Below, in pieces: positions 691 through 60,479 of a stretch of 64,000 nucleotides of DNA. Both the position numbers and the translations under genes were made by a program. How positions within the stretch are numbered: the first letter of the stretch is position 1; each line of letters begins with the position of its first letter. The DNA comes from Odontocerum albicorne (taxonomy: Eukaryota > Arthropoda > Insecta > Trichoptera > Odontoceridae). The notes under the pieces were generated by a model, which worked only from the letters and a program-made list of their open reading frames with translations, was not told where the DNA came from and did not search any database. The stretch is taken from the NCBI GenBank assembly GCA_949825065.1, contig OX463847.1:32812115-32876114 (forward strand), read 5' to 3'.

Positions 691-1179
691 AAAGTTTATT
701 ATTATTGGTAAATTTAGAGTTTCTTGTCAAATTCAACAAGAATCATAACATAAACTGCCACTTTATCAATTTGACCCCAGGTTATTCGGATATCTGGTCC
801 AACTTTGATAAAATATTCAAGCCACTCAAACCAGACTCTGCTTAGGCATACGAGTATAATGAGCTTTCTAGACAAATGGGTGTATAATATCATAGCTCTG
901 GCCATCTTCAAATTATATCTAATATTATGGGCAAGGCCCCGAACACGTTCCATGGTCACGCATTTTAATGTCTTGAATTACTTGGAAGGATTTAAAATAG
1001 AAGCACTTAACTGCTTCTTTAAATTTTAAAGATACTCTACTTTTCACTAAGGCTTAACATTACTTATCTATGCGTAGCGTTTACATTTAAAACGATATAT
1101 TAAAAGGAATAAACTGCCCTTTGTTGGCATCAGATTTTATCAGAAAATATATTAGAAATGTCAATACATAATAGTATGT
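691..1179. other. unassigned AT-rich interval with one excision-scar octamer
   Basis: No gene or known repeat was recognised. The short ORFs here have no family signature. TACGAGTA is present at 849-856; see the footprint entry. Confidence 0.4.
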
Positions 1180-1545
1180 TGGTTGCCACCTTGATGTATG
1201 GAAGTGAAACTTGGACTTGTCAGAAGAAGGATGAGAGTAATTTTAATGCTGTGGAGATGCGTGTGCCAAGGAAATTTTTTAGAGTGTCAACGTTTGAAAG
1301 ACATCAGATATGAATGCATGAATAAAATGGATGTTTTAAGCAAGATGCATAAAAGAGCTTTCAGAAGATTTGGACATGTGGACAGAATGAATTATGAAAA
1401 AATTACTAAGTAAGTAACAGATCAGAAGGGCACGGTGTGGGTGAAAGAGGTGAACGGACGAGAATGTAGCTGGTTCAAATGGACCAGATTTTGAAAGTAA
1501 AGTGTAGAGCGTGAATGTTTCAAAGATGGCGGAATGAAGACATCA
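1180..1545 (+). mobile_element. LINE-A 3' fragment
   Basis: Plus strand. It contains a YGSETWTCQKK-like segment near 1195-1230 (in a frame different from the listed-length ORF), a KMDVLSKMHKRAFRRFGHVD segment at about 1327-1386, and a degenerate RGRPR-type region near 1450. Short deletions and stops interrupt it. It is followed almost immediately by a second copy in the same orientation. Confidence 0.8.
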
Positions 1546-1855
1546 GAAATTAATACTTAAATAAAATGGATGTTTTAAGTAAGACAAATAAAGGAGTTTT
1601 AAGATGGTTTGGGCATGTGAAGAGAATGAATGCATGGTGTGCGTGGAAGAGATAGACTGAGGAAAAAACGAGGACTAGATTGACCAGATTTTTTAAGTAG
1701 AGTGAGAAGCATGAATAAAAAAAGATTGGGCATGACGAGATGTGTGTACGTGGAGGAGGTGAAAGTTGAGTGCTTGGATAGAAAAAAAATGAAAATCTGT
1801 TGTCTCTGCCTACCTCACAAAGGACACGGCGTGATGAAATGTATGTATGTATAAA
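1509..1855 (+). mobile_element. second, tandem LINE-A 3' fragment
   Basis: Restarts the same tail (KMDVLSKTNKGV then RWFGHVKRMN, about 1566-1632) and runs to the LINE 3' end. It shows the conserved run CTCTGCCTACCTCACAAAGG at 1804 onwards and GATGAAATGTATGTATGT at the terminus. Head-to-tail arrangement with the previous copy suggests local duplication or insertion at a TATG-type target. Confidence 0.8.
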
Positions 1856-2269
1856 TCTATAGAAAGGAAATAATGCAAACATATTAAGTGATGTTATTCA
1901 CGATGGATGATTGTACTAAAAAATAACGACAACATCCATAGCCTAGTCAATAAGGCGCTAAAAAAAAGGGTGTCACTGTCTGGTGAAAGAGGTCACATGG
2001 TATCAATACTCGCAGGCGTTAGACTTGTATATATGTGCAAGCACTACATTTGACATTCGTGCGAGTGTTATTACGTCTTAGCGTGCGGGTAATAATCCCA
2101 CTACAAGTTATGTGCCTACTTTGAAAGTTCTTGAAGCTGAAAGCTTGATTAATAAGGCTGAATAAATGATTTTGTCTTATAAATTTGAATTTCACCACAT
2201 GAACCATAAAATGTGATCAAAGTAAGAAAATGAAATTCAAAAGAGTCGGTTTAATTTTTAAAAAGACTA
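1856..2269. other. unassigned interval
   Basis: AT-rich with no recognised repeat. The minus ORF at 2019-2207 has no known motif and is treated as chance. Confidence 0.3.
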
Positions 2270-2560
2270 TATCATCATAATTTTCAGCCTCTTTCAGGCT
2301 CTTTAGTACCTCTTGGGTACCACTAGATTATTTCGGATGTCCATCGAGAATCTGACATTCTGACAACTTGTCCCGCCCATTGCCATTTCATATTCTTGCA
2401 CATCTTTATTACATATTCTATCATTGTTTTGATGCCAATCGAGGAGATTTGTTTACAGTTTCTTTTAGTATATCCCTACATATATCTCTCCACAATTCTC
2501 CGTGTAGTCTGAAGCTTCTGTATGTTTTTGCTGTGAGCGATCATGTCTCACAACCTTGCG
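2270..2560 (-). mobile_element. RTE-type LINE C-terminal fragment
   Basis: Minus-strand translation gives MKWQWAGQVVRMSDSRWTSE followed by IIxWYPRGTKEPERG. This is a decayed match to the widespread insect LINE tail of the form KWKWAGHVARM-DNRW-EW-PR. It lies downstream of the RT domain, which is absent. Stop codons show it is inactive. Confidence 0.75.
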
Positions 2561-2599
2561 TTATTACTGAGGGAATACTTTATATTATTGTAGATATAA

Positions 2600-8640: not shown

Positions 8641-10459
8641 ATTTACTCATAATAAATAAAAAAAATGTAACTAAGGACTCTTACGAAGGCTGGCATGCGA
8701 GTGTCTTTGACCGCGTAAAAGAGGAAATTTGATGCTGGAACTCAATAAATATTAGTAAGATCATACATATAAGTAATAATTAAACAACGATAAGTGTTTT
8801 GCATTGAAGAGATGGTGTAATTTCGTTGTTGAATATTGAAAAAGGGATTGGTGAAAGAATAACACCTTGAGGGACACCTGCTGAAATTTTAGTTCAATTA
8901 GAGATCTGCTTCTGATATTTGAATGATAGTTCCCTTCTTTTTTAAATAAATTGATAACCAATTAATTAATGGCTGGCAATGAGAAGTATAAGGAACACAT
9001 ACTTGTACAAACGTATCAATGGAAGTACAAAATCTACAGTGTTAAAGGCATTAATTAATAAAGTCCAGGATAGTGCTAATTTAACTTTCTCGTGAGGTGG
9101 ACCGGTTTACGAGTATATAATATTAAATATATATCTTGTGGTGTCACTTAGGGACCAGTTCCTTTTAAGATGGGGTGGGTATTAAAAAAATGTTGTGTAA
9201 ATACAGTTTTGTTAAAAAAAATACAATACTTCTTTTTACAATATGGTCTACGGCTATGAAAACCATTTGCGTAGCACTGATCCAGAAGATGTAAGTATCA
9301 TAAACTATTTGGAACTCATTATCTCATATCATCCGTGAGTTAGTAAAAGTGTGGCAGTATGTTCTGGCCTAAATCCGAATTGTAAATAATTGAGTAGTTT
9401 ATATTGGGTGAATTGACACTTTAGTTAAGTATAAACTATTCTCTCTTTTATTTTGGAGAAATACTCGTATATCACATGGGCCTGAAATTCGTATGGGACG
9501 GGGCCTGAAATTCTTATGGTACTGGAGAAGCATACTGGGAATAAGAATTATTACCGCTCTTTTCTAGTTATTAGGAAAGGTGCTGGAAGATACGGAGAAA
9601 TTGGTTATGTGTGTGATGGTTGGGAGAATTTGTTGAAAAAGCTCATAGAAATTATTTATTAATGGAGGGCAATACACCACACCGAGGAGAAATTTTGATT
9701 ATGTAATTGTATTAGAAGACACCTTTTAACTCTGCTGCTAGCTATACTTACTTTTTTATTTACTTTTGTACTTAAATTGACAAAATATTTTAAAACATTG
9801 GTCTCTATGTAAATATGCAAAATATGTTTTTGAAATGACTGAAGTAAATATATTTAATTTAATAAAAACGACAGCTTATAAAAAGCTTTTGAGAAGTAAT
9901 CGAAATATGGACGTACGTGTATGTATGCAATAAGGACCCTGCCTATATTTTACATGGTCTGAGATAATTGAAGAAACCTTCAGTAACTGTATGAGCTTGT
10001 ATTGAACCATTTTTCCTGAGACGGGATTTATTCTTATTTTATTGACCATCAAAAAAGGTTACAAGAATAATACTCATATTAGAATTTTGAGTGCGCATGA
10101 ATATAAATATCCATGAAATAGTCATTTAACTGGCGTTATATTTAAGCTCATCTAAAATTGAGTTTTTTTTTGTGTTTTAAATAAAACAAAAAAGACCTGT
10201 GTTGCGGTCGTAAATTTTTATGCGTCCATAAATAAGTATTTTCAAACTTTTTAACCTCCTTTCCCAAAATGTGCTTAAATGATTATATTATTTTTTTACA
10301 TAAAAATAATGTGTTTGTGTCATATCGTGTAAATATTAAACATGGAAATCATTAATTAATTTTATTTCTTATAAGTATATCTCAAAAACCACACAGTTCC
10401 TTACACATTGTATATTTTTTTTCTTACAAATATAACAAAAATTGTTTTGATAGTAATAA
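8641..10459. other. unassigned interval
   Basis: About 1.8 kb with no recognised gene or repeat. Octamer scars are at 9108 and 9462. The short duplicated phrase GGGCCTGAAATTC-TATGG occurs twice at 9479-9518. Confidence 0.35.
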
Positions 10460-12340: not shown

Positions 12341-12759
12341 GCATGTGTTGGCATATTTTTAAGTACGAGTATGTCAATCAATACATTTATTTCTTTGATG
12401 TCGTTAAGCGTCCTAACTCATTTCAAGGTGTATGTTATTCGTTTTGGTATCTCTAAAAAATGCTTCTAAAAATGATTCGATAGTAGAAAAAGAAACCAGA
12501 GTTGTTTGTGATTTAAATCGATTTACATATAACATGTGTTACTGTAGTTGATCGATTAAAACTACAAATAATTTTATCGTTATGGCTTTGCATTTGAGAA
12601 ACACACATATTTACATTAAGTAATATTTTTAGATAATAGAAAACTTACAGAATTAACTTATCTGTAAATAAAAAAAAATTGACAGCATAATCTCTAGTGC
12701 ACGATTCAGAGTTAAACTTCTTGATTGTGTAGATCTTGGATTTGCTATAAAGTAGAGAA
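12341..12759. other. unassigned interval
   Basis: AT-rich; octamer scar at 12364. No other feature was recognised. Confidence 0.3.
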
Positions 12760-13040
12760 CCAGCTGTCTCTATACCTTTAAGGTGGCATTCCTGGCATGT
12801 GATGTCCTGCGGGGATCTCGTGTGCCGCTATATAATGTGATATTCTATCATTGCATATTCTATCCACATGGTCACGCCAATGCCGCGTTCTCTTCCTGCT
12901 CTACGAGTATCTAATTATATCCGCTATGTTGTAGGTTTGTTGGATGTAATACTGAACATATTTCAGAGAGATTTTCTTATGATGGTTTATAATATTCTCA
13001 TCTCGGATGTTCGATGAAGGCTATTTGTTCTAGTTGTGTC
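12760..13040 (-). mobile_element. LINE C-terminal fragment
   Basis: The minus strand in broken frames gives RKRTRHWRDHVDRM-like then YYIAAHEIPAGHHMPGMPP, a decayed version of the WxxHVxRM ... P-G-R-RPGRPP tail of RTE-like LINEs. Octamer TACGAGTA at 12902 lies within it. Confidence 0.6.
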
Positions 13041-17060: not shown

Positions 17061-18767
17061 ATAAATCTGCATATTCATTATAAATATCTAATTGCTTTTG
17101 ACAGAGGACTTTTTCAATAACCTGCTTAGAAAATCACTCAAGGATTAATTTTATATTGCAAATCTCTGTAATTCGAAGTGACTCAATATAATTGTTTAAT
17201 TTGACAGCTTAATCTGTGCTATTTTGTGTATGATTCAGAGGAAAACTATTTAATAAAACAAATTGGGGATTATTTACGTAATGCAAAATATTAGACTGCA
17301 AATATAATATGTAGTAGACGTAAGCTTTATTGGTCGGGCATTGTTGATACTGCGATCTGAGATCTTATCAAATAATGTCATACCTTATACGGCTAATGTG
17401 ATCGGAATGTGTATTTGAATCCGTTTGAGTCGTGATGCTATTATACAGAGTGACTGATACTTGATGCAAAATAATCTAGGAGGTAATAGAGGATACCACT
17501 ATAAGCTAGAAGTTCATATAAACATGACCTCAATTCCCAACTATTTATAAAAATGTTGAACTCTTTTATTAATAGCAAAAACAAATTACGAGTATAACAA
17601 AAAAAAACATTTCTATAGAATGCAAAGTACTTATATATGGAATACGGTAAAGCAGATGGTGTCAAAAAGTAAGGGCTCATCTTGTACGACCGTTCCTAAT
17701 CAGGTCCCTTAGTGTAAAGAGAATAAACCTGATCTTGGGTGTTTTTCAATTCATATCTTCACAGTATGTACACACATACATTCATAGACATAAACACACA
17801 AAATACATAGACGGGTATCTATGTGAGAGAGTTTATACCCACACCTATAAAATGTTATTGCATATACATATGTTTATATATAAATTAGTAGCGTAAATAA
17901 ATACATGGCAATGTAAATTGACTGAAAAATTAAACATTGGAAAAAAGGAACAATAATTCAAATACAAAATTTATGGCTATGCCAATAAAAAAACTCTTCT
18001 GGCACTGGTCGCAAGAATTCAATAGATTTCGTCTGTGTGAAAAGAAAAAAATATTTCCCGGTTTATGGTATCCTGTAACTACTCTATCATTTCTCTCGAA
18101 CAAATTGCATTATTCCTTTGGAAGCATTGTACTCGTATAATACACTGGTTATAAATGTACATAAAGATATTTTTTTACCGAAGGGTAGTTTCGAAGTCTC
18201 CTGGTCATTATCGAAGAAAGTGTGTTAAAATTTTTCGGAAGTTTCATCATGAGATACTCTGCAATATGTATAATTTAAATCTACTTTAGTTTAATTTTTT
18301 TGTGTACTTGGTTAAACACGGTACATCTGACAGGATTATAATTATTGCTAAACAGCAATTTTATCAAATATAATAATCGAAGAGTTGAACCCAGGGTAAA
18401 GTTATTCTGTCATTGATATGTAAAGAAATTTGTCAAAATCATAAGTGAAAAAAGAAAAATAAATGACAAGTAAATACATTGAAATAATAGGCGTCTTGCA
18501 TAATAAATCTCAAACCATTTAAAAGGTTACATTTCAGAGCACCCCCGAAAAAGCGATTATTCATCCACTCAAATCCATTCCAAATTCATCCGAGCCAAGT
18601 TGCTTCATTTCAACATTTGTTGGCTGAGTATGAAAAAGATCCTTACGAAGGAAATATAGAAGAAAAATTATAAATTCATGAAAACTGCACTTTTGATTTG
18701 CATTCAACGTTAAATACAGTTGACACAACCTTCCTTGCCCAGCCTTTCGACTTCTCCTAAAATTCGT
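17061..18767. other. unassigned AT-rich interval
   Basis: Octamer scars at 17587 and 18130. The phrase GATTAGGAACGG (minus strand, 17690) also occurs at 14337, hinting at a shared but unidentified repeat. No gene was recognised. Confidence 0.3.
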
Positions 18768-19589: not shown

Positions 19590-19895
19590 CTGCTGCTAAA
19601 GCTGATGTTTTGAGTAAACTGAAGAAGAGCACGCTGAGATGATTTGGGTACGTGGAATGAAAGAATGAAGAAAGAGTAACAAAACATATACGAGTATATA
19701 GTGCAAATATGGGTAGAAAGTGTGTGAGAGGAAGACCAAAGAAAGTATGATTGAATCATGAGAATTATTTTCTGAAAGAATGAAACATAGTCATTGAAAT
19801 CGTAGAAGTTGTATGAGAAGGTGTGTGTGTATTGAAAAAGGAAAATCTGGCGCTCTGTCCTCTCTGTCAACCTGACAGGGAAACGGCGTGGTGGT
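19590..19895 (+). mobile_element. LINE-A 3' fragment carrying a 6-bp footprint
   Basis: Plus strand from AAGCTGATGTTTTGAGTAAA through TTTGGGTACGTGGAATGAAA to CTCTGTCCTCTCTGTCAACC and GGCGTGGTGGTATATA. At 19681-19705 it reads AAAACATATA-CGAGTA-TATAGTGC. Other copies have AAACATATAGTGCAAAT (15380) or AAATATACAG (20625), so CGAGTA is an insertion here. Confidence 0.85.
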
Positions 19896-24074: not shown

Positions 24075-24170
24075 TTTTTACTAGATCGGGACTCTTTTTA
24101 AAATATCATTACGAATCAAACCCAAAACTCCCGCATGGTAGACAGGCCACTTTAACTACTAACTAGACGA
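24075..24170 (-). mobile_element. tRNA-like SINE head, minus strand
   Basis: The reverse complement reads CGTCTAGTTAGTAGTTAAAG ... TGCGGGAGTTTTGGGTTTGATTCG, in short an A-box-like and a B-box-like segment as in S1. No S1 tail is attached. Confidence 0.5.
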
Positions 24171-24779
24171 TGAAGATCCACACACTCTGCATACTTCCTT
24201 TGCCTTACCATGTGTGTGTGATTACGAGATATATATTATTATATCTGCATGGTATTTTTTTATCGTTGAACCTATTGTCTTAACTTGATTGATTGTATTG
24301 ACTGCTTATTTATTTATTGTAATTTTTTATTATTTTACTTTACACGTAATAGGACATCGCCTAAAAGGTCTGATGTCCTCGCGACCGGGCTCACCATCTA
24401 CTAATGGGGGTGTATGTTGACTGAGGTGATATTATGAGATAAGCCTAAAATTTTTGATATCTTCTCTCTTATATGTACTTTCTTCTCGATTATCTTGAAA
24501 TATACGAGTGTTAGGAAATATGTGTATGTATAATATAAACTCGTATGTACTCGTACATACAATGTTTCTATCAATAAACCTATATTTATTTAATTATATA
24601 CTCGTAACTCTGATCAACGAAATTCCATACCAGATTAAATCTGTTCATCACCATGTAACTTGGATATTTTGTTATTTAAAGACTGTGTGTTTTGAGTAAA
24701 ATAACTCGCACACTATAAATCAACACAAATTAAAGCGTGTTTTTTTCACAAGATGGATTAAACATGTCTTAATATTTAT
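24171..24779. other. unassigned interval
   Basis: Octamer scars at 24548 and 24599, with a seven-of-eight match at 24538: the densest cluster in the window. 24340-24420 has a GC-richer patch of unknown origin. Confidence 0.35.
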
Positions 24780-24860: not shown

Positions 24861-27029
24861 TCGAAGGCAAGCAATCATCATGGATATATAATTATTGATG
24901 CAATAAAATATATTATACTGCAGTTTAACCACTATCGTAAATTCATCAACCAGAAGATGCACTTTTTTCGTATTTAGTCTGCTCTACCCTTTCTCCAGCA
25001 ATAATGTATTCTACAAAACTTGTGTTGCATTTATTATATACAACCTTATGCCATTACATTATAACGAGAATACTTTCAAAAGACCTAATTTAAAAAAAAA
25101 CAAAACAAGACCTTCTTTTTAAAGTTTTAGTTCTTCCAATCAGTCCATGTAGGTTGAGTTATCAGTTGTAAGATATCGTATTTTAATCGTTATCATGTAG
25201 TCATTTATCGATAAAACCATCAATTTCCATATCAACACCTATTACAGTTATAACATGGATCGTTAGGTATCATAGCATGCGATTTGTATACTGATTTAGG
25301 AGGGTACAAGTACATTCAAAGTTTAATATAAAAATATTGTCTTATTCCTGGTGATATTATATATAGTGACGACTTACATGACCTAATTGATAAGATGCCT
25401 GTCTTTTAAAGCTTTTGAAATGAATTTTAAAAATTATAACGAGTTTGTATGAAGATCGATATTTTATTCAAGTTAAAATAATCTGAAATTTTGAGTTCGC
25501 AAACTTCTAAGCTTATTGGTAAAACATTTTTATGCCTCTAGAAGATTTCGGTGAAATCAATAACCGAAAGTGAACATACAAACATATCTGTTCTTACATT
25601 TAAACGTTTTAAGATATTTCTTTGAAGTTTGGAATATTATTTTGTTCGTAATAAATCCACCAAATTGTTCTCAATGCATCGAAACTGTAATGTAATAACT
25701 CAAATCGAAACACGTTTTTTTTTATACTTAAAAAATTGTTATTTTTGTATAATTACGAGTAAGTTCGTATATAAAATAAAATCCTATATTCATCAACCCA
25801 ATCGGTAGTTCGCGGATTACACGAGGTACTCGTATGTAGCAAAATTATCGATTTGTGATTAAGTGGTTAATTTTGCCTCCTTCATTTTAACGATCGTACA
25901 TCAAATGCAAGCGCTCAATTATACACGTCAAGTAGCATGCTATTCAAATATTCCAAGTAAAAAATAGTTATGACGTTAATTTACAGCTACTCTTTGATAT
26001 ATGCGCACGTTTCTTAAGAACTACCGTCCAATTAGCATGCTACCTACCCTATACAAAATTTTTACCGAGATCTTAAAAAAAAATTCGCATTTTATTTCCT
26101 GTTAAAACACTTAAAAAGTAATTTAGATGGGTAAAAGCTGTATTTTATTTTGTGTTTTATATGAAAAAAAACACGTAACTGAAAGAAAAATCAGTTTTGA
26201 GACGTTTAATATAGAAAATTTAGTATGAAAATTCAAGAAATATAGTACTTGTTATTATATAGTGAATTAATATTGTGTAACTCAAACCACTGAATTTTAC
26301 ATGCATAAAATATAAATCAAAATCTCCCTGTGGGGTCGGCGAACACTTTCTTTTTCAGTGAGCGGCAGATATTTGCAAATAAGAATTCAGGATGAGCCGT
26401 CCTTAGGGGTTTCAGCTTAGAAGGAAGTCAAAAGCTTAACAGCCAGGTTGTGAATGGAGGCGTTTTATGAAATTCCTGTTTTCCTGATAAAATATAAACA
26501 TTATGATAAATTAACCAATATACCATATACATATTCTGTGCTATCAATAATTTGTGTAAGTTAACGATTACTAATTTAACAAATTTCTTTTCTACTAGAA
26601 ATTCATTAAAATTTTGTGTTATTTTACACAAACTAATTCATGTTTAAAAAATAAAAATAAAATTTTAATATTGGTTACATATTTTTAGAAAATTGACCAT
26701 TAATTGTAAAAAGTTTGTGAGCCAACGTTCTAATCATATGTATGGGAAAACTTAACAAAGAAAGAACCATTTTAATTTCACTCGCCTTCTCATTTTCAGC
26801 GATCAGGTCAGCTGTCGGATGTTAACTTGAGACAAAAGGTGATTCTCGCAAGTCATAAATTAAGTTCACCGCAGTGTAAAGGTTAATCAGTAGTGGATGA
26901 CTATGCTAGTTTGGTTTTGACGTCTGCATTTTCTCCATCAATATGGCAATTAAACAAGATACAAGAATAAAATATGTCAAAACATGTGGACGCAACATAA
27001 AACATACTATTTTATACCTGTAGTAAAAG
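24861..27029. other. unassigned AT-rich interval
   Basis: About 2.2 kb, no gene recognised. A possible degraded S1 head is at 25380-25412 (GACCTAATTGATAAGATGCC). Octamer scars at 25754 and 25827. Confidence 0.35.
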
Positions 27030-27400
27030 TAAATACATACATACCATCACTGTCGGGGTAGGCAGAGAAGATAGAGTGCCATACTTTCCTAACTCGTCAG
27101 ACATCCTTAAACTCTTCCACATTCATGTACTTTCTCATACAACCTTTACAATTTTTCTGACTTCCTACTTTTCTCCATTCGGAATATTATTCACTTGATC
27201 CAACTTTACTTTCCTTGGTCTTCTTCTCATACGCTTTACACTCACATCTGCCCTGTGTATCTGTTTTTTTTTAGTATTTTTTCATTCATTCGTTCTACAT
27301 GCCCAAACCATCTCAACGTAATCTTATTCATCTTACTTAACACACCAGCCTTAAGTTAATATTCATTCCTTATTATGTCATACATTGTCCCTTCTGAAAA
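27030..27400 (-). mobile_element. LINE-A 3' fragment
   Basis: The minus-strand terminus is at TACATACATACCATCACTGT (27041), running through GGTAGGCAGAGAAGATAGAG to CATGCCCAAACCATCTCAAC (FGHVERMN region). Confidence 0.8.
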
Positions 27401-27429
27401 AGTATTAAACAAAAAGGGCCAAAATTAAT

Positions 27430-27780
27430 TAATAATAATATGACTCTTTTTAAGGGCGCTCTAACTTGAGATTAGAGCCCACTATTAATAACGGTTTAAA
27501 AATATTACTAAAAACAAGTTGAGTTTAACGATAGGAAAGTGGTGCCTGCGGTCATCAGATTAGAAACTTCTCCGCATCTACATAAGTAAAACATATTTGG
27601 TAAGAAAACCACAAAAAACTTATTAATGGGTGAAGAACTATAAACAAACCTTTGTGGATCTTCCGATGAGGGATCATAAATTTTGATAAGATCTCCCAAA
27701 AAAGGTTATCTTTAAGCGCTTCCTAAAGGTGCACACGCCATCCATATTAGTAAGATTAAGCGGCAGTTCATTTCACGCCA
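27430..27780 (-). mobile_element. LINE-K C-terminus and 3' UTR
   Basis: The minus strand reads NELPLNLTNMDGVCTFRKRL then KITFFGRSYQNL and stop (about 27770-27680). The N-E-L-P-x-N ... F-R-K-x-L-K pattern is a common end of LINE ORF2 proteins. The 3' UTR continues leftwards to GAGCGCCCTTAAAAAGAGTC (reverse complement) and ATTAATAATAATATGAC. Confidence 0.75.
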
Positions 27781-28319
27781 CAGGTTGTAATTATATCCTG
27801 ACCCATTGGATTAATTCGTAACAGTACATTTATTCGATGAAGATGAAATCGATCTCAAAGTTCTGTTCCTCACCGAATCAACATGTCTCAGGCACAAAAA
27901 CGAAAGACACAATGGATACATCCCAGTAAGAGGCTTGAGAGACAGTGTTTGAAATCAATCCGTTCGCGACTTTTAAGCCAATATCGACTTTTTAGAAGTA
28001 GACTAATATGACAATATTTATAACTAATATGACTATATCTATAACAATATTTATGCCAGTCTAGCTGTTGCATCGAAAACCGAATGGATTCTAGAAATTG
28101 GCGAACAGGCAGACCAAAATAAATATAATTTCAATAATCCAGATGCTATATAATAAATCAATTATAAGAGTTATTTCCTTTGTAATTGACTTGCAAATTT
28201 TAACTCTCTTAGATTAAACAAGCCCGAACAAACCGTATAACTTAACCTGTATATCCATTCCTGATAAACGCACTTCCATCAACATATTGTCAACGCGGTT
28301 ATTAAAAAAAATCCTCATT
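27781..28319. other. unassigned interval
   Basis: Moderate composition; no motif identified on either strand. Confidence 0.3.
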
Positions 28320-28369
28320 TTTTTGTGCACATTATACAGACCCTTCAAATCAATCCAACAATATATCCT

Positions 28370-28668
28370 TTTGAGATCATGGTTTATGTTAATGTAATAA
28401 GAATGAATAAGATGGAAGTGTCTATTATGTGTCGTTTGAGGACGGGCGACGCGTGGTGGCTAGTCACCTTTGCAACATGGGTATTCTGGAGAATCCGGGC
28501 TGCGAGTGTGGTCTGGATGATAAACCTATAGACCATAAAATTTTTGGTTGTCCTTCGCGAGACAGATTTTATTTACTTAAAGCCAAGCTTAAAACTTTGG
28601 GTGGATTGTCTATTTATGAAAAAAAATACAGACCCTTCCTAACCCGCAATCTTCAACACTGGTCTTAA
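28370..28668 (+). pseudogene. LINE ORF2 C-terminal tail (Cys/His end)
   Basis: Frame +1 reads MEVSIMCRLRTGD to about 28450. A frameshift there moves the match into the frame RRVVASHLCNMGILENPGCE ... CGLDDKPIDHKIFGCPSRDR, ending LTRNLQHWS and stop at 28666. C-x-C-G-x7-H-x4-C is the signature seen after the RNase H domain of Jockey/R1-type LINEs (LRTGHG ... HL ... C-CG ... H-C). The preserved 79-codon frame suggests a moderately recent insertion, 5'-truncated. Confidence 0.8.
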
Positions 28669-28860: not shown

Positions 28861-28983
28861 TATCCATGAACATAGGAGATCGAATTTTCAGTACTTCAAG
28901 TTTTTTTAATTGATACTAGATAGGTAACTAATTTGTCCTTTCAACGTTAACAAGTGTCCTCGAATAAGTACCTAAACGAGCGA

Positions 28984-30350: not shown

Positions 30351-31679
30351 TATTATCATTATAAAAATATTTTTCTACCTTTTTCATCAAACAATCAATT
30401 TATTTGTTTAGATTTTTATCTAGCGTCATTACTTTTCATACAAAATAGACGTAATTTTATGTTTGAAAATTAAAGCCTCGAAATATTATTTAATCTACGA
30501 GGGTAAAACCTAGACTGTGGGTAATGCATGGATATGATAACTATCGCCATTAACGTTTTCTAGTATAACGATGGAAGATAACGTGAAGTCAATCTGATTG
30601 TTCTTAGGTCAGGGGGTTAGTGTTGTTAAGAGTTGAGCTCAATCGGAACTGCGAAATCGCTTCATGTATAGTATATATCCGAAGAACCATCTTATTTTAA
30701 TTGATCGATTTAAAAAATAATATGAGTTTGATCAACAAATATTTAACTAAATGAACTTCACATAATGTCGATTTTAATCAAATTTTCTTTGTGTTTATGA
30801 ATGACATGTTAAGCATTGTGTTATTGGAAGATAACTAAGTAGGCTCGCGGTGGAAAGGCATTGTTTTGAGGCAAAAATTTTGTATGGTAATTTAAAATAA
30901 ATCAATACAAATATCTTCTGAAATCTTGCGTGAAAATAGAATTTTTAAATAAATTATTTATTTATCACAGTTCTCTTCTAAATATTTTAGATTTCTATAA
31001 TTTCAATGAGAACACCATAGTAAATGGCTCAAAATATTAACCATTTCAAACAATCATGAAGAAAAAAAAAAGGTTTACAAGGTGGATTGATTAAGAAAAT
31101 GCTCTTCTAGTTGATCATCTCCACGACGAATGAGTCTTGGTGTTAAATAATAGTTTCAGTTGGCTAAGAGAGAAGACTGATTTGGAAAAATGGTGGATGC
31201 CGTTAGTGGTTCCAGATTTAGGAAAACATCGCCTGAATACGCAGGGTATCAGAAAAAGTATACGTGATTCTTCTCTACCGATATATTTTCATCGGTTGAA
31301 GGAAAATAACAAAGTTACTTTTATTATTTGTAAGTTTCTATTTTTTTTAAATCGGTGGTGCCCATCCTTAGCAGAATTGGCGTTTGACTAATGTGAAGAT
31401 ACCTCGTGCGTGAAAGTGAAAATAATAGCACTATGTGGAGATAAGCACCTTTAGGGTGCTGTCATCTCGAATTGCTATTTTAGTAGTTTTTCCTATCTTT
31501 CAATCAAAGCTAATGTAATACTGCCGGTATTAACATTATATTTCTGATGTACAAGTTGGTTGTAATGAAGGGTGAATTTGATAAAAAAGTAATGTTCGAT
31601 CTTATTCTAGAGTTGTTCAAAGAAGCGTCATACTCGTATATATAAGGGGATACTCTTATATTCTTTGGTATAATTAGGA
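30351..31679. other. unassigned interval
   Basis: AT-rich. The ORF at 31137-31391 has no family signature. Octamer scar at 31631. Confidence 0.35.
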
Positions 31680-36715: not shown

Positions 36716-37159
36716 ATTTCACACAATCTTCAGAATTATGTTTTATTATGAATTGTATTGCGCCTATACATACTCGTACCTTCACTTCTAGTACATATAT
36801 TATTACCTAGATTGACGGCTTACAACACAGAGTATTCTGCCCTAAGAAACTTTCTTTGTGAGTGCAGTACATACTTGATAGAGTAAACAGAAATGTTTGT
36901 TTTAAAGAAACCTCGCATTGTAGTTCAAAGGTTCCTCTGGGGTCACCCGAGAGATACTTCAGCTATTGTTGATTCTTATGATAGGTACCTTCCCGCTATT
37001 CATCTGGCGTAGACAAATTACTATCATTTGCTACTTGCCGTTTACATACTCTTGTAGCTACCATTTAATCCAAGGAAAGTCATAGATGGTTTATAATTAT
37101 ACCAATGATGCAAACATAATAAGATGTATTCACCTGTATGAGTAAAGTTGATTTTTTTG
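36716..37159. other. unassigned interval
   Basis: Octamer scar at 36771. No gene recognised. Confidence 0.3.
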
Positions 37160-38339: not shown

Positions 38340-39394
38340 ATATTATTTCTTTGTTAATTTCAATACCCCGATAAAAAAATGCAAAAAAAAAAATCAAACC
38401 ACTATCAAAATAATTTATTCAGATTAATAATTATTTAAGACGATAGAAATAAAATCAAGGGGTACAAAATATATTTTGGACAATATTTTAATTTAAGTAC
38501 TTTCATGAAAAAGAAAGAAAAAAAAATATTTGACATGAAAAAAACATTTTTTGTTTACGCCCTATAAGAAAATTTTCAAATAAGAAAATTTTCTAAATTC
38601 TATAAATCCCTTAATATATTGGGTAAAAAATGAACACGGATAACCAATTAGCAAGATTAAATTTTTTGTCAGTCGGAATCCTGTTTGAGGAAAAATGGTT
38701 CATTTGAAAAAACTGTATTTCAGTTACATGGCGCCATCGTAAATATGGTTCAAGTTATAGAAGAGAATATATACATGTATACGAGAGTATTAAAAATAAC
38801 GATTTTATTTTCATATTAACAATACGAGTATGTAGAACACAAATTATTATTTTGTACGTAAAGATTTTTCTTATTTTCAATCACATATGTTAAATTGGTT
38901 TAAACACAATTTGGTGTTATAATTACAGTTTTTGTTATTGTATTTCTCTTTCGTTGTGAAATCTAAAATTTTGCAGACTACCTAATCCAGTGGGATGCCA
39001 TTTGGCAATTTCTTCTAAACAAAAACACTCTTTGGTCATTTTAAAGGAAGTCGATCCCAGTTAAATATACTTTTCTGCGTCAACTGTGCATCCACTGAAT
39101 CGCATAATTTAACAAATAGGTATATTTTTTCTGACCACTTTTTAAATCTACACTACAAATTTTCAAATAATATAACTTTGTTACATATAGTATATTCGTG
39201 TGTGCCCTAAAAGCGTGTCAAGTTTTTCATATTTTTACATACTTATTCCAATGCTCTTTAGTTTTAAATAATGTAGTCTTGTGGGTTGTCATTTACAAAT
39301 TTCTTTCCACCAGAGAGAATCAAAATTTTTCACATGTATGTTCACAGTTTGCACCAATTAACAATAATTTGAATAATTATTGAGATCACGTAAT
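38340..39394. other. unassigned AT-rich interval
   Basis: Long A/T runs; octamer scar at 38823. Nothing else recognised. Confidence 0.4.
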
Positions 39395-39529: not shown

Positions 39530-39705
39530 ACAACTAAATGACCTCCGTGCTCAATTTGGTAAAAAGCCCATCTTCCAACTCAAAGATCGCTGTTTTGACT
39601 CCTGTTGGAATCTAAATTTTAAATAAGGAATTCCAGTCTGGTTTGCCCCTAAGGCATCTTTAGGAAAGTTCTTGTTCGTCGAAAGAGATTGCCACATGGG
39701 AATAC
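39530..39705 (+). mobile_element. tRNA-derived SINE S1, 3'-truncated
   Basis: Head AATGACCTCCGTGCTCAATT ... GTTTTGACTCCTGTTGGAAT, body GGAATTCCAGTCTGGTTTGC, tail start GAAAGAGATTGCCACATGGG. It stops exactly at the octamer TACGAGTA at 39703, beyond which LINE-K tail sequence begins. Confidence 0.75.
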
Positions 39706-39714
39706 GAGTACATA

Positions 39715-42980: not shown

Positions 42981-43374
42981 ATTTATTATTTTATTAGTAA
43001 ATGTCTTTTGACCGTTTTGATAAAAAATAAAAAATGATGACTTGTGAATGTTTCAGGTGAGTGCTGTAGTTTTTAGGAAATAATATATGAAATTTGCAAC
43101 TAAGGAATGAGACCTCGTCGTCACAGGTTTTGCCTAGTTAAGCGGTTCTCTGTATCCATAAAATGGCGAATTTTTTTGTACGAGTACTTGACGGTTCTCA
43201 TTTTCACCAAAACTGTTTAAATTGTATTGTGGTTGATAAAGATATGAAAAATAAACGAATAAATGTCTATCGGATATTAGCGTGTACTTCAACACAAGTA
43301 AACATTTTAACTTTTTAAATGTTTTACATTATAAATTTAGCTGTCAATTTGTCTTGTAATTGGTGTTTTGTGTA
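42981..43374. other. unassigned interval
   Basis: Octamer scar at 43179. Nothing else. Confidence 0.3.
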
Positions 43375-44376: not shown

Positions 44377-44874
44377 ACATTTTGAGAACGCCGTGATGTT
44401 GAATTATTGAATTTTTTTACGATGTACATGTACTCGTACATGACTGACTCAGTTGAAGTTTTAGTTAAAAAAATACTAATTCTTTGATATGCCGACAATT
44501 GTTTGATTTAAAAAATGGTACTTAATACGTAAGATTCAGTAACGGGTGATTTTTTTTCACCTCCTATCCCTTAAGAGAATTATGTCCCCTAGACATGATT
44601 AATATTCCATACAATTTATATTTTGACAGCTTGTTGGGAATCATTTTGAGAACGGCACGACTGTGAATAAAATAAAAATATATTATCAGCGCATGCTGTA
44701 CATTTTATTAAAAAAAAATCTCATACAATTTTTGGATCGTGTATATTTATTTCATTTCATTAATTTTACGTTTGATACTGGTTTAACCCAACTACATCAA
44801 TTAACAACAAAAATATATTAAAAGTTTAAGTATAATATAATGACAAAAGAAACAATGATTTTCATGCTTTCCTG
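44377..44874. other. unassigned interval
   Basis: Octamer scar at 44431. Confidence 0.3.
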
Positions 44875-50110: not shown

Positions 50111-50540
50111 GAATAGATTGCCGTTTAATTAAAAGGTTTTATTGCATACAATGATAAATGAATATAATACAAAAATAGAATGTATCGTAGACAAATCATT
50201 TTATTTAATAAAATCATGTTGCAGGATCCAAATACTTTGAGAAATACTGAATTTAAGACCACCCTGTTTATTGAAAAGAAGAAGATTAAAATACGTTTTA
50301 TAATTGGTCTCTTAAAAAGGATACAAAAAGGAGTAAACTCATGTTTTGACACTTCAATAGCACTCCATTGTATCCATTAAATGGTCGTAGGACAACAAAT
50401 TTCAGGTTTTACTATTTATATTCTCATTTTATATCAGCCATTGTATGTGATCAATAAAACATTTAATACTCGTAACAGTATCATCATCATCAGGCCTTAG
50501 AATAATACAATAACAAATTATTTTCGTATAATATTTTTTA
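50111..50540. other. unassigned interval
   Basis: Overlapping short ORFs on both strands at 50125-50380 have no family signature. Octamer scar at 50467. Confidence 0.3.
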
Positions 50541-50755
50541 TTTAACTACGTAATATAAAAGTACGAGTATATCCCCAAAATATTAAACGACGTAATATAA
50601 AAGTACGAGTATATCCCCAAAATATTAAACTACGTAATATAAAAGTACGAGTATATCCCCAAAATATTAAACTACGTAATATAAAAGTACGAGTATATCC
50701 CCAAAATATTAAACTACGTAATATAAAAGTACGAGTATATCCCCAAAATAACATG
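50541..50755. repeat. 42-bp tandem repeat, five units, each with the octamer
   Basis: Unit ACTACGTAATATAAAAGTAC, GAGTATATCCCCAAAATATT, AA; five copies differ by only one or two bases (GACGTAAT in one). 42 is divisible by three, which explains the repetitive ORF on the minus strand. Near-identity implies recent expansion. Confidence 0.9.
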
Positions 50756-53095: not shown

Positions 53096-53755
53096 ATCTT
53101 TTCAATTTATGGTAAAAATTCTATTTGAGCCATTACGGGTTAAATGTATGAATATACTACGAGTATAATATACAAAGTTCATGAAGGGACCAAATCAAAA
53201 CTATTGTTGGGTAAAAATTCAATGTGCGTGAGCATGTCCAACCCCACTTAAGGGACTCGCAATGGGTCTGTTAAACCCCCTTTCCTATGGCGAACTTTGA
53301 AATATTTATGGTGACACAATGGTTTATGGGATATTTGTGATAATTTTATTATATTTGTGTAAACAAACTGTATTGGTGTGTTATCCCGTGGCTCATGATT
53401 TGTAAAATAAATCATCATAGGAAATAAATACTAACTCCATCATTCCAAGTAGTTAGCAACCCCCGTGGCATAGTTGATAAAATTGTATGAGATTCTATAC
53501 CCGTTGGTGCCAAAAAAGAAATGTCCCAATCGGGTTCAAGAGTTCGTCTAGTAATCATAATCGCATGCGCTAAAATGGTAAGAAAGGTGTTGTTAGCCTA
53601 CTTGATGTTGTGTTTTATTCACGCGCGATGACGAACTAGGATTTACGTGCCTACTTAAGTGGTTCTATATCTAATGGTTCGATTAATGAAACCAAATACA
53701 ATATTTACTCCCATCCACGCTCTTCAACGTATCCACATTTTCAATGCAGGTATGT
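53096..53755. other. mostly unassigned
   Basis: Octamer scar at 53158. A possible S1 head remnant is at 53455-53510 (CAACCCCCGTGGCATAGTTG, TTCTATACCCGTTGG). 53220-53310 is GC-richer and unidentified. Confidence 0.35.
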
Positions 53756-54470: not shown

Positions 54471-56399
54471 AAATATAATACTGTCTATTTATTGACTAGT
54501 ATATTTTTTATAATTTCATATATCGACCCACTTGCGAACATGTGACAGGAGTGTTCAATTTTAATAAAAAATTGCCGCTGAAAAATATAATCCTTATTGC
54601 CAGGTTTATACTTTTCTCCTATTAAGGAAAAAGTTCATTTTTCTGTGGAATGACGACGAGCCCTCTCGGTGGGAACAACAACCTCCCACGACAACCTCAA
54701 AAATCCTTGCCCATCGCTCCAGATAAAATCTTCCTGCATAATAACACCATTTAGTGAAGACACATAATACGCCTCTAAAAAACAAAATCAAACGACCCAA
54801 CATATAAAAGGAATCTTAAAAGCTTCAATAAAAACGTCAACCCTACCCACCGATAGGCACCCCGCCACTCTGTTCTCGATTTAAAATAACCAGAGATCTC
54901 AGCAATGAAAAAAATTATACGCTTATTTAAAACTTTCAAACATCCAAGTTCCGATCTGACCCTTAATTGAGTTTCATTATTATTTATTATTATTTGTTTC
55001 AATTTAAATTTAAATCAACCGCATGCGATATGAATTATGAACCACAAACAAAGAGACGATTTAGAACCAACTCGTGAGCAACCACAGAGGATCGATGACT
55101 ATTTTCATTTCTCACACAACTATTTTAAATCTAGCACCCCTTTCTGTTTGATAAGTGACTCCTATTACTTACTATTGTGGGTTAGTTTTTCTATTATGAA
55201 TACTAGAAGTGAATTTCATTTTCAAACTATTCGGTTCCCACAATTAGTGGACCAGGGTCGTACTCGATTTTTATAAGCAAACATTATTTTACTGAAAAAT
55301 TATTCAAATACAACATATTGAACGAGTACGTACATTCATAAAAAATGCACTTTATTAATATTTCAAAACTTAATTTTTGTTTGTGATAATGTATATGGTA
55401 TTTTGTATATTCGAGGGCTAAGATAAGTTTATATTTTTATAAAATATATTTATAAAATAAAATATATTTCTTGAATCTTCGAAAAGACTATAGTTTCACT
55501 TTCTGGTGCCATGTTTTATGTGAAGATAAACTTCACCTGGCGATGAAGACGGTGGTCTTCGAAACCGGTAGTAAACCCAAAAATAAACTTGTGCTTAACA
55601 CAAAGATATAAAATAAATTTTTTATTTACTTATTTTTCCTTTACATAAAATATATTTATTGCTAAAGAAATTCAAATGAGAATCATATTTTTTTTATATT
55701 TCCCATTTTAGTATCTTTGTTTGTATGTTTTTTTATATCTTTTTGTTTAAACCGACTTACATTCTTCTAATTTGACAATATTATAAAAAAATTGTGCTTG
55801 ATAGAAATTAACAAAGTTTTTCAACTTTCATAATTTAATCTATCTTGAAAGATAATTTGAAATAGTTTACGTGAGAATAAGAAAGTAGTCTTTACTTAAT
55901 TCAAACATCAATTATTTGAAAAAATCTTATTACAGTATTTTACTGTGCATTAAATAGTATTTCCAATCAGACCCTGAGAAATGAGGATATGAAACACACT
56001 TACGCCTTCAGTAATGAATAATATTTCTTGATTTATTATGCGTTGGGGTTCATAGCACTTATATAAAGGGTCCGCGAGTTCCTGACCCGAGCTTTTACAA
56101 ACACTGACCTTAGTTATTTAAATAGAGGATTCGGCATATAATTCAAAATATAACATAAAATATAACAAAATATAACATATTCATATCATGAAAAATTAGA
56201 TTTTTTCATCAATAATGATGAAGGTAAAATCCTATAATACTGAAATTCAGGGGATCTAAAAAATATTTCGTTATACTACTGTGTAATGAAAGAAAAAACG
56301 TATTTAATATCTGTTATTTCCGAATAAAAAGTTCACATAATCTCATATCTATTGTTATCTAAAATTGATGTTATTTTGACTCTACTATTTTTTTCTTAG
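54471..56399. other. unassigned interval with one strong hairpin
   Basis: 54600-55000 and 55030-55290 hold minus and plus ORFs without family signature. The hairpin GAAGAC-GGTG-GTCTTC lies at 55545-55560 inside GATGAAGACGGTGGTCTTCG, AAACCGG. The rest is AT-rich. Confidence 0.35.
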
Positions 56400-57587
56400 C
56401 AGTATTTTTTTTTTATCCACTTTGCACGAATTTCTCCTGTTACACAAAGAGGGTTTGCTTCTAGCGTTAGCTTATTCGTTAAGAATAATATCAGTCAGGA
56501 TTCTTCTCATACTGCTAGATGGTACTGAGAATATATCAACCGTGTCATTCAGTTGGTTCAATATCTCTATACCACGCGTGACTGAGTGTTTAGCCATGAT
56601 ATTCGTCCTGTAAGTTGGTATGTAGAACAGAAGGTGATTCCTTGCACGGATATATTTATTGGGTACATATAAACTTAGTGCTTCTAGAATCGCGGGACAG
56701 TTAAAGGAACCTTGGAAAACCTTTATTAGGAATATCGCAATGGATTCTTGCCTTCTTGTTTTGACGCTTCTATAGTTACACACCGTGAGAAGTTCGGCAT
56801 GGTGAGCATATTTTGGGTAATCGCCCTTTGTTCTGTACCATAGATATCTGAGGATTTTTTTTTGTATTTGTTCTATATTGTTTTTATATTTGAGCTGGTG
56901 AGGAGCCCAAACCGTAGATGCATATTTTAATTTGGTTCTAATTAGATAATTATATAAGTTTCGGAGGATATCGGTGCTGTTAAATTCTCTTGATATTCTC
57001 ATTACAAAACCGAGTAGTTTGTAATAGTCCGATATCAAACGTGAGACATGGTTAACGAACGTGAGTCCGAAATCGAAGGTTACGCCCAAATCCTTGAATT
57101 CAGAAGCTCTGTTTAGTGCCACTCCCTGTATAGTATACTGATGGTGGATTGGTGAAAACGATCGACTATAAGATAGACAGACACATTTATTAATGTTGAA
57201 CAGAAGATGATTTTGCTCACTCCAGGAGACTAGGGAGTCTAGGTCCTGTTGTAACTGTGCACAGTCGTGAGGTGAATTGATCTTTTTGAAAATTTTCAAG
57301 TCGTCAGCGAACAATAAACATGTCGAGTGACTTATGGAATTTTGAATGTCGTCTATTAATATGAGGAATAGTAGGGGACCTAAATTGGATCCTTGTGGTA
57401 TACCAGATCTTGCGATAAATTCCACAGAAGACTTGTTACGGATTGTTACGTATTGAGATCTTTCTTTTAGGTAAGATGCAAATAATCCAATTAGATTATC
57501 GCTGAAGCCAAGTTTGTGCATTTTCTTAAGTAATATATCGTGATCAACTTTGTCGAAAGCTTTCTGAAAGTCTGTATATATTTTATT
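56400..57587 (-). mobile_element. Jockey-like LINE J1, 5'-truncated
   Basis: Best-preserved element in the window. Its 3' end is defined by comparison with 32755-33245: after the ORF stop come about 60 bp of 3' UTR ending at TGCAAAGTGGAT and an A-run (top T-run 56407-56417). The 5' break lies at about 57587, inside the RT domain. Beyond it the sequence is AT-rich and unrelated. It would have been inactive from insertion, since the N-terminal RT blocks, endonuclease and ORF1 are missing. Confidence 0.9.
56472..57587 (-). CDS. LINE reverse transcriptase, C-terminal two thirds (partial ORF2)
   Basis: Copies element RNA into DNA at the target site in intact relatives. The frame is open from about 57587 (YTDFQKAFDKVDHDILLKK before the first Met) to the stop at 56472-56474. 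The first Met at 57521 is internal, not a true start. Counted from that Met: GIPQGSNLGP at residues 40-49 (the PQG RT block), LLFADD at 69-74 with the catalytic DD pair, the thumb-like LGVTFDFGLTFVNHV region near 145, the YLWYRTKGDYPKYAHH region near 228, and the family end YIPTYRTNI ... RGIEILNQ. Block-2 DFQKAFDKVDH precedes it. About 370 codons lack any stop or frameshift, so insertion was recent or the copy was spared. Closest known grouping by motif order is the Jockey/CR1 side of non-LTR elements. The plus-strand ORF at 56422 is a shadow. It is not a host gene. Confidence 0.9.
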   Translation of the reverse strand, partial: NKIYTDFQKAFDKVDHDILLKKMHKLGFSDNLIGLFASYLKERSQYVTIRNKSSVEFIARSGIPQGSNLGPLLFLILIDDIQNSISHSTCLLFADDLKIFKKINSPHDCAQLQQDLDSLVSWSEQNHLLFNINKCVCLSYSRSFSPIHHQYTIQGVALNRASEFKDLGVTFDFGLTFVNHVSRLISDYYKLLGFVMRISREFNSTDILRNLYNYLIRTKLKYASTVWAPHQLKYKNNIEQIQKKILRYLWYRTKGDYPKYAHHAELLTVCNYRSVKTRRQESIAIFLIKVFQGSFNCPAILEALSLYVPNKYIRARNHLLFYIPTYRTNIMAKHSVTRGIEILNQLNDTVDIFSVPSSSMRRILTDIILNE

Positions 57588-58635
57588 ATATTATCAATAC
57601 ACGTAGTTGTTAAAAAATATTTTTAGGGATATCAATGCTATGGTAAGATAAGCCTGAAACTTTTTTAAATCGATTCATAGCTTCCGAAAATGAAACCTTC
57701 ATATCAGGTGGCATAACTCCATTTTCATTATCATCTTTTTCTGTAATGCATTTTACTGCAGAAATAAGTTGCGAAAATACTGTACAATTTGTTTTTTTTA
57801 CATGAACGTATTCTAGCTTATAGTTTTTTTATTTTCTTTAGAGTGTCCAAATTCATTAACCCATTGATTTGGGTCCCCTCAGCGGCATTTTCGGCCGAAA
57901 AATGTTTGTTATACGTTAAACATATTGTTTTGTCTACATTGGTTTGATTCAACAAAAACAACGTTATAATGAAAATATTGTTCCTTGAGTATTCGTTATA
58001 ATAACATTTTAATTGTATTTTCCACAATAGTTAGAGTCACATGGGGTATTGTATCACTATAATGTAGTGATAGGTAGAACTATAGTGTATGGAGACCCTG
58101 AACGGATGGAAGAAACAGAAAAGGAGTCCAATGAAAATATATAATGAGTGTGTAAAATGGAATATAAGTAGTGCCAGATGGAAAATCATAGATGAGGCCT
58201 ACAAATGTACAATGTACCTTAAAAATAAATTAAAAGCAAGAATCATAATAAAAAAGGGCAATCAAAGTTAATATCAACTCCACAATACAATACGTTAATA
58301 TATAAAATCTTGTTTAAAAAAGTATAGATGTAAAATATTAATAAAAAAACAATAAATTGAAAAAAAAAATGTAAATACATAATAAGGTAAAAAAATTCCG
58401 GTCCAAGGATATAAAAAAGGCAATAGAATGGGGAAAAATGTGTTTCATTATACCATAATCACTATGTAGTTTAATACAGTTTTTAGAACAGTAAATTAAT
58501 TTTTAATACTATTGAAAAAAATATACTTTCTTCTCAAAAGGACGTAACTCTGCGCATATAACATTTTTCGTCACCTTTAATTTTTTTCAGGAAATCTTTA
58601 GAATACATCTGTAGATAAACGTTTCAAAAGCTTGT
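57588..58635. other. unassigned AT-rich interval
   Basis: 57640-57900 is modestly GC-richer, no motif. The rest is A/T runs. Confidence 0.35.
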
Positions 58636-58639
58636 TATA

Positions 58640-58715: not shown

Positions 58716-59139
58716 TTGAATGCTTGCATTTTTATAATTATGCTGAGTTTTTCATAAAGACGTAATAATCCCATGATATTACTTTTAGTCATATTATTTA
58801 ACAGTTGAACGTTTTTCTTCGAAATTAAATTTTTGTCTGATGTACTCGTATATGAACAAATATAGTATTGCCGATGAAACCTGTCAAACGTCTTGGATTA
58901 TTCGCCATCAGAACTTTGGGTTTGATCTATGAAGAATGTGTGCATGCTAAAGTGTAACAGCTTGAACACTAAAAACTTATGTACGTACAGGCGTCTTCCA
59001 TTCATAAGATTGCCAGCGATTAATCTTCTGTATCGAATGAAAAAATAGCGTTTGCATGATAAATGTTTAATACAAAAAACCCATCATAGAATTTAAACCT
59101 TTCAAGAATGAAATAATGAAACTATCATATAATCCATCC
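58716..59139. other. unassigned interval
   Basis: Octamer scar at 58843; otherwise nothing recognised. Confidence 0.3.
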
Positions 59140-59330
59140 TGTCGTATAGTTCATGACTGAGCATCGTGACTCCCATGATATCCTCTGACGACTCCTCTCC
59201 ATCCATCCCTGCACTCCGCGGCTCGAAAGGCAGTTGTTAAGGGTAGTCCTGTTGAATCTCATACTTGGTCAGTCCAACGCATTGGGACTCTTCCTCTTGT
59301 GCGTCGTCCTTCCATGTCTCCAGTAACCAC
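59140..59330 (-). mobile_element. LINE tail, family D
   Basis: The minus strand reads GRRTRGRVPMRWTDQV, stop, DSTGLPLTTAFRAAECRDGW, RGVVRGYHGSHDAQS (one frameshift at CRDG). RGR-P-RW-DQ ... R-A-DR--WR is the usual insect LINE C-terminus. Contiguous here, it is the empty-site reference for the element at 23522-23689. Confidence 0.8.
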
Positions 59331-59726
59331 CAGCGGCCGCCGGTCCCGAGGTGCGCTGGCGCGCCGAACCGGAGAAACAATTCGCAACATACGAGTAGAT
59401 AAATTGTCTCACGGTTTACTGTATGTCTCTGTCTGCTTTATATGAATCTGCGTTTCCGTCCGGTGCATATTCGAGATCGCTCCAGAATGAATTGGCAAAC
59501 TTGGCCAGTCAATTTGAAAGGAATATTTTTTTGAATTTTACTTTACTTTTTTTTAAATTTTCACTTAAATAAAAATATTCGTATTATTTGTCAGTATTCC
59601 TATACATATTTAATCTATACAAATACTTAAGTTTTTGGAAGTCATGTTTGCGAATATATAATTTAATTATTGCGAATTATTTCTCCGGCTCAGCACACCA
59701 ACGCACCCCGAGACCAGCCACCGCTG
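59331..59726. mobile_element. hAT-type non-autonomous element with long inverted repeats
   Basis: Left end CAGCGGCCGCCGGTCCCGAG and inverted right end CAGCGGTGGCTGGTCTCGGG agree at most positions. Similarity extends about 60 bp to GGAGAAA(C/T)AATTCGCAA. Exact 8-bp direct repeats GTAACCAC flank it (59323-59330, 59727-59734), the size typical of hAT. The paralogous LINE tail has GTAACCAC once (23777-23784). The left arm is unusually CpG-rich for this window. 396 bp, no transposase; TACGAGTA at 59390. Confidence 0.85.
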
Positions 59727-59844
59727 GTAACCACAATAATAAACATATAAAATATTATGTGAAGGTTTTTGTTATAAAATATATCAAAGCACATTTTTCT
59801 GAATTTATTTTGAATTTCGATTCATAAATAAGCACTCTTTAGGT

Positions 59845-60319
59845 CAGTGTTCCCCAACCTTTTTAGACCTGTGAACCGGTAAAAAAAGGAAAAAATTTTC
59901 GCGGACCACTAATACTGAAATAAAAATGGTTTTTTTATTTAATATTTTTTTAATCTTATATTGTTACAGATGGACATACGTAACTATAATTGACAAATAT
60001 ACATATAACAGTTTGAATTGTAACATTGTCTGATACAATTAAAATTTAACAAAAACCATGGAGTTTTTGCAACAAACTAATGCGAAACCTGCTGTTGCAT
60101 CTTTGCTAATATATTGGATATTCTTGGCTGCAGTGCTGTCTCTGACAGACGAAGTGCTGCATTCACGTCCAGTATATTCCTTTGTTTCGATTTTATTGAG
60201 GACATGGATGAAAATCCTATATTTAATATTTTTGCATAGCGAATTTCTTGAAAGTTTGCGGCCCAGCGGAGTCTCTGCGGCCCGGCACCGGTTCGCGGAC
60301 CACTGGTTGGGGAACACTG
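59845..60319. mobile_element. hAT-type non-autonomous element
   Basis: Perfect 15-bp terminal inverted repeats CAGTGTTCCCCAACC / GGTTGGGGAACACTG, flanked by exact 8-bp duplications CTTTAGGT (59837-59844 and 60320-60327). Subterminal GAACCGGT and TTCGCGGACCACT occur on both sides. 475 bp; the ORFs on both strands within it have no transposase signature and one runs out through the right flank. Confidence 0.9.
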
Positions 60320-60479
60320 CTTTAGGTGATATTTTGTTCGATTGTTCGAAAAATTATTTCGTGTTCCTTGGTCAAATTCAAACGGAAGAAAGTATACGAG
60401 TATATAGATGTAATTTACTCGCGAACAGTGTTTTTCGGTATGTTAAGTATCTCAGTAATCTCTCGTGTCGTAGAGCGTT

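Follow-up and report, generated by a model that had tools for sequence, protein, structure and literature searches.

Probable excision scars of CGAG-ended Tc1/mariner-superfamily elements in the genome of Odontocerum albicorne

A stretch of 64,000 nucleotides from the genome of the trichopteran Odontocerum albicorne (contig OX463847.1, positions 32,812,115 to 32,876,114; hereafter the window) raises the question of why a single eight-base word, TACGAGTA, and its reverse complement, TACTCGTA, should recur at so many places. The explanation that we favor, at a probability of roughly 80%, is that most copies are excision scars of elements of the Tc1/mariner superfamily whose ends start with CGAG. 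The original prediction, made from the letters of the window, had seen in them the traces of a vanished Minos-type transposon: its view of the words as scars at TA is supported, and the target proves to be like that of Tc1/mariner elements, whereas its naming of Minos and its supposition that the source had vanished are not supported.

Abundance of the octamer

Exact matches to the octamer number 28 in the window (18 TACGAGTA and 10 TACTCGTA), and once a 42-bp tandem array is counted as one locus they amount to the 24 independent loci (14 and 10) that had been reported initially; the flanks of these loci, when compared, look unrelated, again as reported. Markov models of orders 1, 2 and 3 fitted on the window give expectations of 1.4, 1.6 and 1.9 copies, and the probability of 24 loci against the approximately 1.5 expected under orders 1 and 2 is about 1e-20. 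(Orders 4 to 6 give 3.8, 12 and 24, these models being fitted on the word itself.) Of the 6,052 octamers (strands merged) that contain three G/C, this one ranks first in the window, in which neither Rfam at gathering thresholds nor ARAGORN with the bacterial code found a match.

The assembly (1.287 Gb in 1,241 contigs) contains 381,502 exact copies, 190,753 in one orientation and 190,749 in the other, against 15,081 and 15,070 copies of a control word, the octamer read backwards. The Markov expectation for the genome, scaled from a 244-kb sample, is about 26,000–31,000, leaving an excess of about 350,000 that is somewhat inflated by tandem arrays (6 of the 97 copies in the sample). This sample consists of the window and 18 stretches of 10 kb (L001–L018) from seven long contigs, all of it unselected sequence (other L numbers denote further genome loci fetched for comparison), and its octamer density is higher than the genome average. 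With the word masked, 5–6 copies were expected, and the octamer is third by z-score among 30,668. The 18 stretches outside the window (180 kb) contribute 69 copies, the word ranking second there, and range from 13 copies at the start of C1 to none in two stretches.

Could such numbers result from chance or base composition, or from a dispersed repeat that contains the octamer? Tandem arrays, including the 42-bp array and those at the start of C1, do inflate the counts; but 91 of the 97 copies survive the collapsing of two arrays, and the 24 window loci have unrelated flanks. This explanation, to which we give next to no weight, is refuted by the window, array-collapsed and genome counts alike, and the comparison of genome-wide counts with control words that had been suggested as a check favors scars. 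Arrays with one octamer per unit occur in the window at 50539–50750 (period 42), at L015:6206–6435 (period 75), and in C1 at about 24114–24706, 55174–55449 and 72037–72794 (periods 45, 67 and 50). Two of 22 arrays in the 244 kb hold at least two octamers against 0.42 expected, which is not convincing, and the start of C1 looks richer.

Six-base insertions at TA

Under the proposed mechanism, an element would insert at TA and duplicate it; on excision, the transposase would cut one strand at the edge of the element and the other strand 4 nt inside, such that both flanks would keep CGAG as a 3' overhang. Joining would then leave TA-CGAG-TA or TA-CTCG-TA, a gain of 6 bp over the empty site.

We compared 110 octamer sites, each with 120 bp on either side, with 322 kb of genome sequence, excluding matches less than 400 bp away on the same locus and those with fewer than 12 aligned bases on either side. 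A spanning paralogue was present for 13 of these sites (97 had none) and for 350 of 1,000 random TA-N4-TA sites that served as controls (650 had none). An exact 6-bp gap appears in at least one paralogue at nine of the 13 testable octamer sites, and in the best match at eight, versus seven of the 350 control sites (three as the best match; 7 of 5,685 pairs), a difference with a Fisher P of about 3e-11. By pairs, 31 of 46 octamer alignments show the 6-bp gap, 12 show something else, two share the scar and one has no gap. Examples include L016:3852 against L016:1787 (92% identity), L001:1065 against L004, and L024:2142 against L022 and L023; and when the alignments were read by eye, in each of the nine cases the relative had a TA at the corresponding position or a few bases from it. 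The predicted form of the scar, TA-CGAG-TA or its reverse complement at a TA, is seen as insertions relative to paralogues, and the alignments favor the view that CGAGTA was inserted rather than ancestral. Two diverged repeat copies, at L003:4179 and L013:7923, carry scars of opposite orientation at seemingly the same TA, which looks from the sequences like two independent events. The excision-footprint reading is well supported.

The flanks point in the same direction. After repeated flanks were dropped, 106 sites (a first count used 91 of 96) yield a palindromic consensus that reads TA-Y-A-T outward on both sides. A palindromic, AT-rich TA target is a known feature of Tc1/mariner elements.

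It might be supposed that the octamer is a selected functional motif, such as a protein-binding, chromatin or replication signal, given the sharp excess of exact matches with no near matches and given that neighboring copies cluster (17 pairs within 200 bp versus 8.5 for random TA sites, arrays collapsed, in the 244-kb sample). A selected motif is nevertheless very improbable: at the testable sites the octamer mostly originates in a gain of 6 bp at a TA and not in point changes, its flanks carry a transposase-like palindromic target, and it is spread through repeats and 1.3 Gb.

If excision left CGAG overhangs on both flanks, their middle bases would be mismatched, and repair would restore CGAG or CTCG, or else the mixtures CGCG and CTAG. 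The mixed products show no excess (TACGCGTA, 2 versus 3.8 expected; TACTAGTA, 6 versus 6.1), and because they are not enriched, the joint is apparently always copied from one strand. Nor is a 3-nt footprint, TACGATA, enriched in the 244 kb (29 seen versus 35 expected).

Near matches had been listed in the original prediction alongside the exact ones, and they carry no signal: in the 244-kb sample, one-mismatch neighbors, as would be expected of decayed scars, number 146 against 151–162 expected. In the genome, there are 841,879 such words against 794,000–852,000 expected by scaling from the sample, a rough procedure in that the sample's own 146 scales to 770,000 and the backwards control has 960,081 one-mismatch neighbors. 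Since these neighbors show little or no excess, the scars look young; their mean divergence would be 0–1.7% at face value, and a few percent at most given the roughness of the scaling. With an insect mutation rate of about 3e-9 per site and generation, their age would be at most millions of generations, and under a constant rate only a few hundredths of a scar would have to be retained per generation in each haploid genome.

CGAG-ended mariners as the candidate source

The genome harbors at least four types of mariner with CGAGG ends. CGAG stands at both ends of the copies at L010:2014–3273 and L008:8488–9405 and at one end of those at L011:1902–2831 (the other end being CGAA) and L006:4953–6219 (the other being degraded); a partial copy lies at the edge of L007, single ends of one type occur in L028, L029, L030 and L032, and the same first four bases are found in the copy at L048/L049. 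The terminal repeats of the four types are identical to Rhodnius mariner ends at 27 of 35, 23 of 28, 27 of 29 and 25 of 26 bases, and because of these matches we assign the CGAG-ended copies to mariner. An approximate scan with the four repeats, allowing up to 7 mismatches, returned 5, 10, 2 and 10 matches (types B and D share matches), whereas 12 shuffled queries gave 0 to 3. The suggested search for Tc1/mariner elements with CGAG termini is thereby answered with several mariner families. The statement that no CGAG-ended element remains is true of the window, where comparison with the mariner copies collected from the genome finds none, and untrue of the genome; one of the families has open transposase frames, and the supposition that the source has vanished is not supported. 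Weak protein matches to a frame in L011 were seen at window positions 1155–1386, together with several in the window to a frame beside L043 that we take for a LINE.

By their matching ends and their abundance, these resident CGAGG mariners are the likely source of the scars, and the vertumnana-like family appears to be the leading candidate among them. The copy at L010:2014–3273 has ends of the form CGAGGG..CTACTTA..TTTTGAG, which share 27 of 35 bases with those of Rpmar10, and encodes a DD34D transposase (its last two catalytic D are separated by 34 residues). When a piece of this transposase was used as a query against the genome, it gave 58,355 first-look candidates, and all 150 that were scored match it at 72% or higher (L010 itself at 100%, the others at 72–85%). 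Six of the 150 have a 383-residue open frame without a stop in the match, and there are other long frames too; one copy with a long frame, at L048/L049 (C39), bears CGAGGGTTG (CGAGGG) at both ends. From the scars we infer a 4-nt stagger for the source mariners. The more specific proposal, that a single mariner lineage with this stagger is responsible for about 350,000 young scars and could be active even now, is tentative, and we put it at slightly less than an even chance.

Five CGAG-ended mariners in the 244 kb, none of them in the window, extrapolate very roughly to 26,000 genome-wide, a number that the scars far exceed. This imbalance lends something to the idea that another TA-specific process, e.g., abortive transposition without a full element, produces 6-bp micro-insertions. 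We consider such a process improbable, since ordinary excision already accounts for the sequence, target and length of the scars, and many jumps per surviving copy would be expected over millions of generations.

Several observations weigh against excision from these mariners. Four of the 13 testable sites lack the 6-bp gap (L003:5579, L016:3110, L034:1365 and window position 43179), two of them showing 8-bp gaps, one a 1-bp gap, and one substitutions plus a 1-bp gap; and at a fifth, L013:7923, the best match is the scarred paralogue. Right flanks fit the target better than left flanks (61 versus 35, with 10 ties; P = 0.01), an asymmetry that is at odds with a symmetric model and for which we offer no explanation. 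Passages of the literature describe Tc1/mariner staggers or overhangs of 2–3 nt (PMC3878927, a review) and footprints of 2–4 bp (PMC7913693), and a reconstructed human Hsmar2, reported in a paper that contains CGAGGG once, left non-canonical footprints with a transposase that its authors regard as not fully functional (PMC3770610). Among the elements themselves, the copies that could be compared, those of types B and D, are mostly 90–97% identical, which suggests a greater age than that of the young-looking scars. When paired ends were sought with relaxed criteria, 8 CGAG-like pairs emerged, three of them the mariners in L008, L010 and L011; this is no more than the 5 to 16 pairs obtained with other starting words. 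The second vertumnana-like copy whose ends were read, at L046/L047 (C10), has a left end of CAAGGG and an altered right end, in which TACGAG runs straight into TACTTAAG and the 6 nt that should follow CGAG are absent. This junction, a single case, could have been left by an abortive cut made 4 nt into the element. Finally, in the genome sequences examined, no site was found with the element in one copy and the scar in an allele or paralogue.

A Minos-like Tc1 element, now lost or rare, is an unlikely though not negligible alternative to the CGAGG mariners as the origin of the scars. Minos of Drosophila hydei, a member of the Tc1 group, has CGAG ends, a TA-CGAG-TA footprint and a 4-nt stagger, and is the only element known to us with this 4-nt product; the apparent age of mariner types B and D is also in its favor. 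What differs is the transposase: a provisional Minos transposase sequence, recognized by Pfam as a Tc1-type transposase, gave 31,385 first-look candidates, of which the best 118 were scored, with 124 matches, and among the scored candidates there was no close relative, the top match being 34% identical over 244 residues and the highest identity 43% (over about 140 residues). Moreover, the ends of the three best-matching loci that were inspected are CACTGGCGG/CACTAGCGG, which together with that 34% speaks against calling the source Minos-type, and a match in a lower row, at L030, sits in an element with CACTGG ends. No TACGAGC word in the genome sequences examined continues as CCCC, and because the scars look young, complete loss of their source is less likely.

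Elements of other kinds came to light in these searches. A Tc1-like family at L043, L044 and L045 has copies about 95% identical with ends TA-CACTGGCGGTCATTG / TA-CACTAGCGGTCATT, and the corresponding transposase matches are interrupted by a short gap that resembles an intron. Of the 150 Transposase_1 loci that were scored, four were inspected: L042 terminates in TCAGGTCTG and L039 has TTAGGTTGATGC at its 3' end, so that further mariner families are present as well. The mariners at L039 and L040 are 98% identical over 737 bp, and on the other strand the 3' end of L039 begins TTAGGTTGATGCATAAGTAACG.

Known footprints and the scars along the window

To our knowledge, Tc1/mariner footprints have so far been described at single loci and in assays. 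The octamer differs from them in scale, with about 350,000 excess copies in one genome and a place among the most over-represented octamers, and in the retention of 4 nt; it resembles the footprints of Tc1, Tc3, Sleeping Beauty, Mos1 and Minos in that terminal bases are left between two TAs, as the pertinent passages of PMC2874221 and PMC3878927 relate for excised Tc1/mariner elements. The Rhodnius prolixus mariners Rpmar10 vertumnana, Rpmar16, Rpmar13 and Rpmar33 have CGAGG ends like the four types in O. albicorne, but the main text of the paper that describes them (PMC4678618) contains neither "footprint" nor "excision". A search of the literature, with most subscription journals lying outside it, found no earlier report linking the octamer with mariner or with footprints. 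The mark is of a familiar kind, but we have found no description of one on this scale or with such a stagger.

If this interpretation is correct, the scars would constitute a natural genome-wide counter of cut-and-paste jumps. Jump rates over evolutionary time are difficult to determine, most departures going unseen; one exact octamer that marks them so densely could allow departures to be counted, dated and mapped across a whole genome, with comparisons among individuals and among related species. A mariner with a 4-nt stagger, which is unusual, would be implicated as well, and excision scars would be shown to contribute 6-bp insertions to a genome in measurable numbers. Each scar lengthens the sequence by 6 bp, preserves the reading frame and contains no stop codon in any frame, and excision from genes would consequently be mild.

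The putative scars lie throughout the window, all as exact matches. On the plus strand, TACGAGTA occupies 849..856, 9108..9115, 12364..12371, 12902..12909, 17587..17594, 25754..25761, 38823..38830, 39703..39710, 53158..53165, 59390..59397 and 60395..60402; on the minus strand (i.e., TACTCGTA on the plus strand) it occupies 9462..9469, 18130..18137, 24548..24555, 24599..24606 (51 bp from the preceding one), 25827..25834, 31631..31638, 36771..36778, 44431..44438, 50467..50474 and 58843..58850. Another plus-strand copy, at 19689..19696, lies in an interspersed repeat that we take to be LINE-like, and 13 of its 16 spanning paralogues lack exactly 6 bp. The plus-strand octamer at 43179..43186, whose sole spanning paralogue (73% identical) has the substitutions and 1-bp gap mentioned above, is possibly a chance match. 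The tandem array, also on the plus strand, has five units, with octamers starting at 50562, 50604, 50646, 50688 and 50730.

One sequence, TACGAGTATATCCCC, is common to three otherwise different loci (window position 50562, L001:7269 and L005:6985). The window also contains an open reverse-transcriptase frame of 372 residues (RVT_1) at 56472–57590, whose named relatives among the 120 listed are headed by three moths, Arctia, Manduca and Mythimna, followed by beetles and a spider. Other TA-N4-TA words are high as well (TATATATA 6.6-fold, TAGGTATA 6.2-fold and TAAGGATA 3.7-fold), and in the 244-kb sample TACAGTA (61 versus 42.5) and TACCATA (62 versus 47.7) are mildly so, possibly as scars of other Tc1/mariner families.

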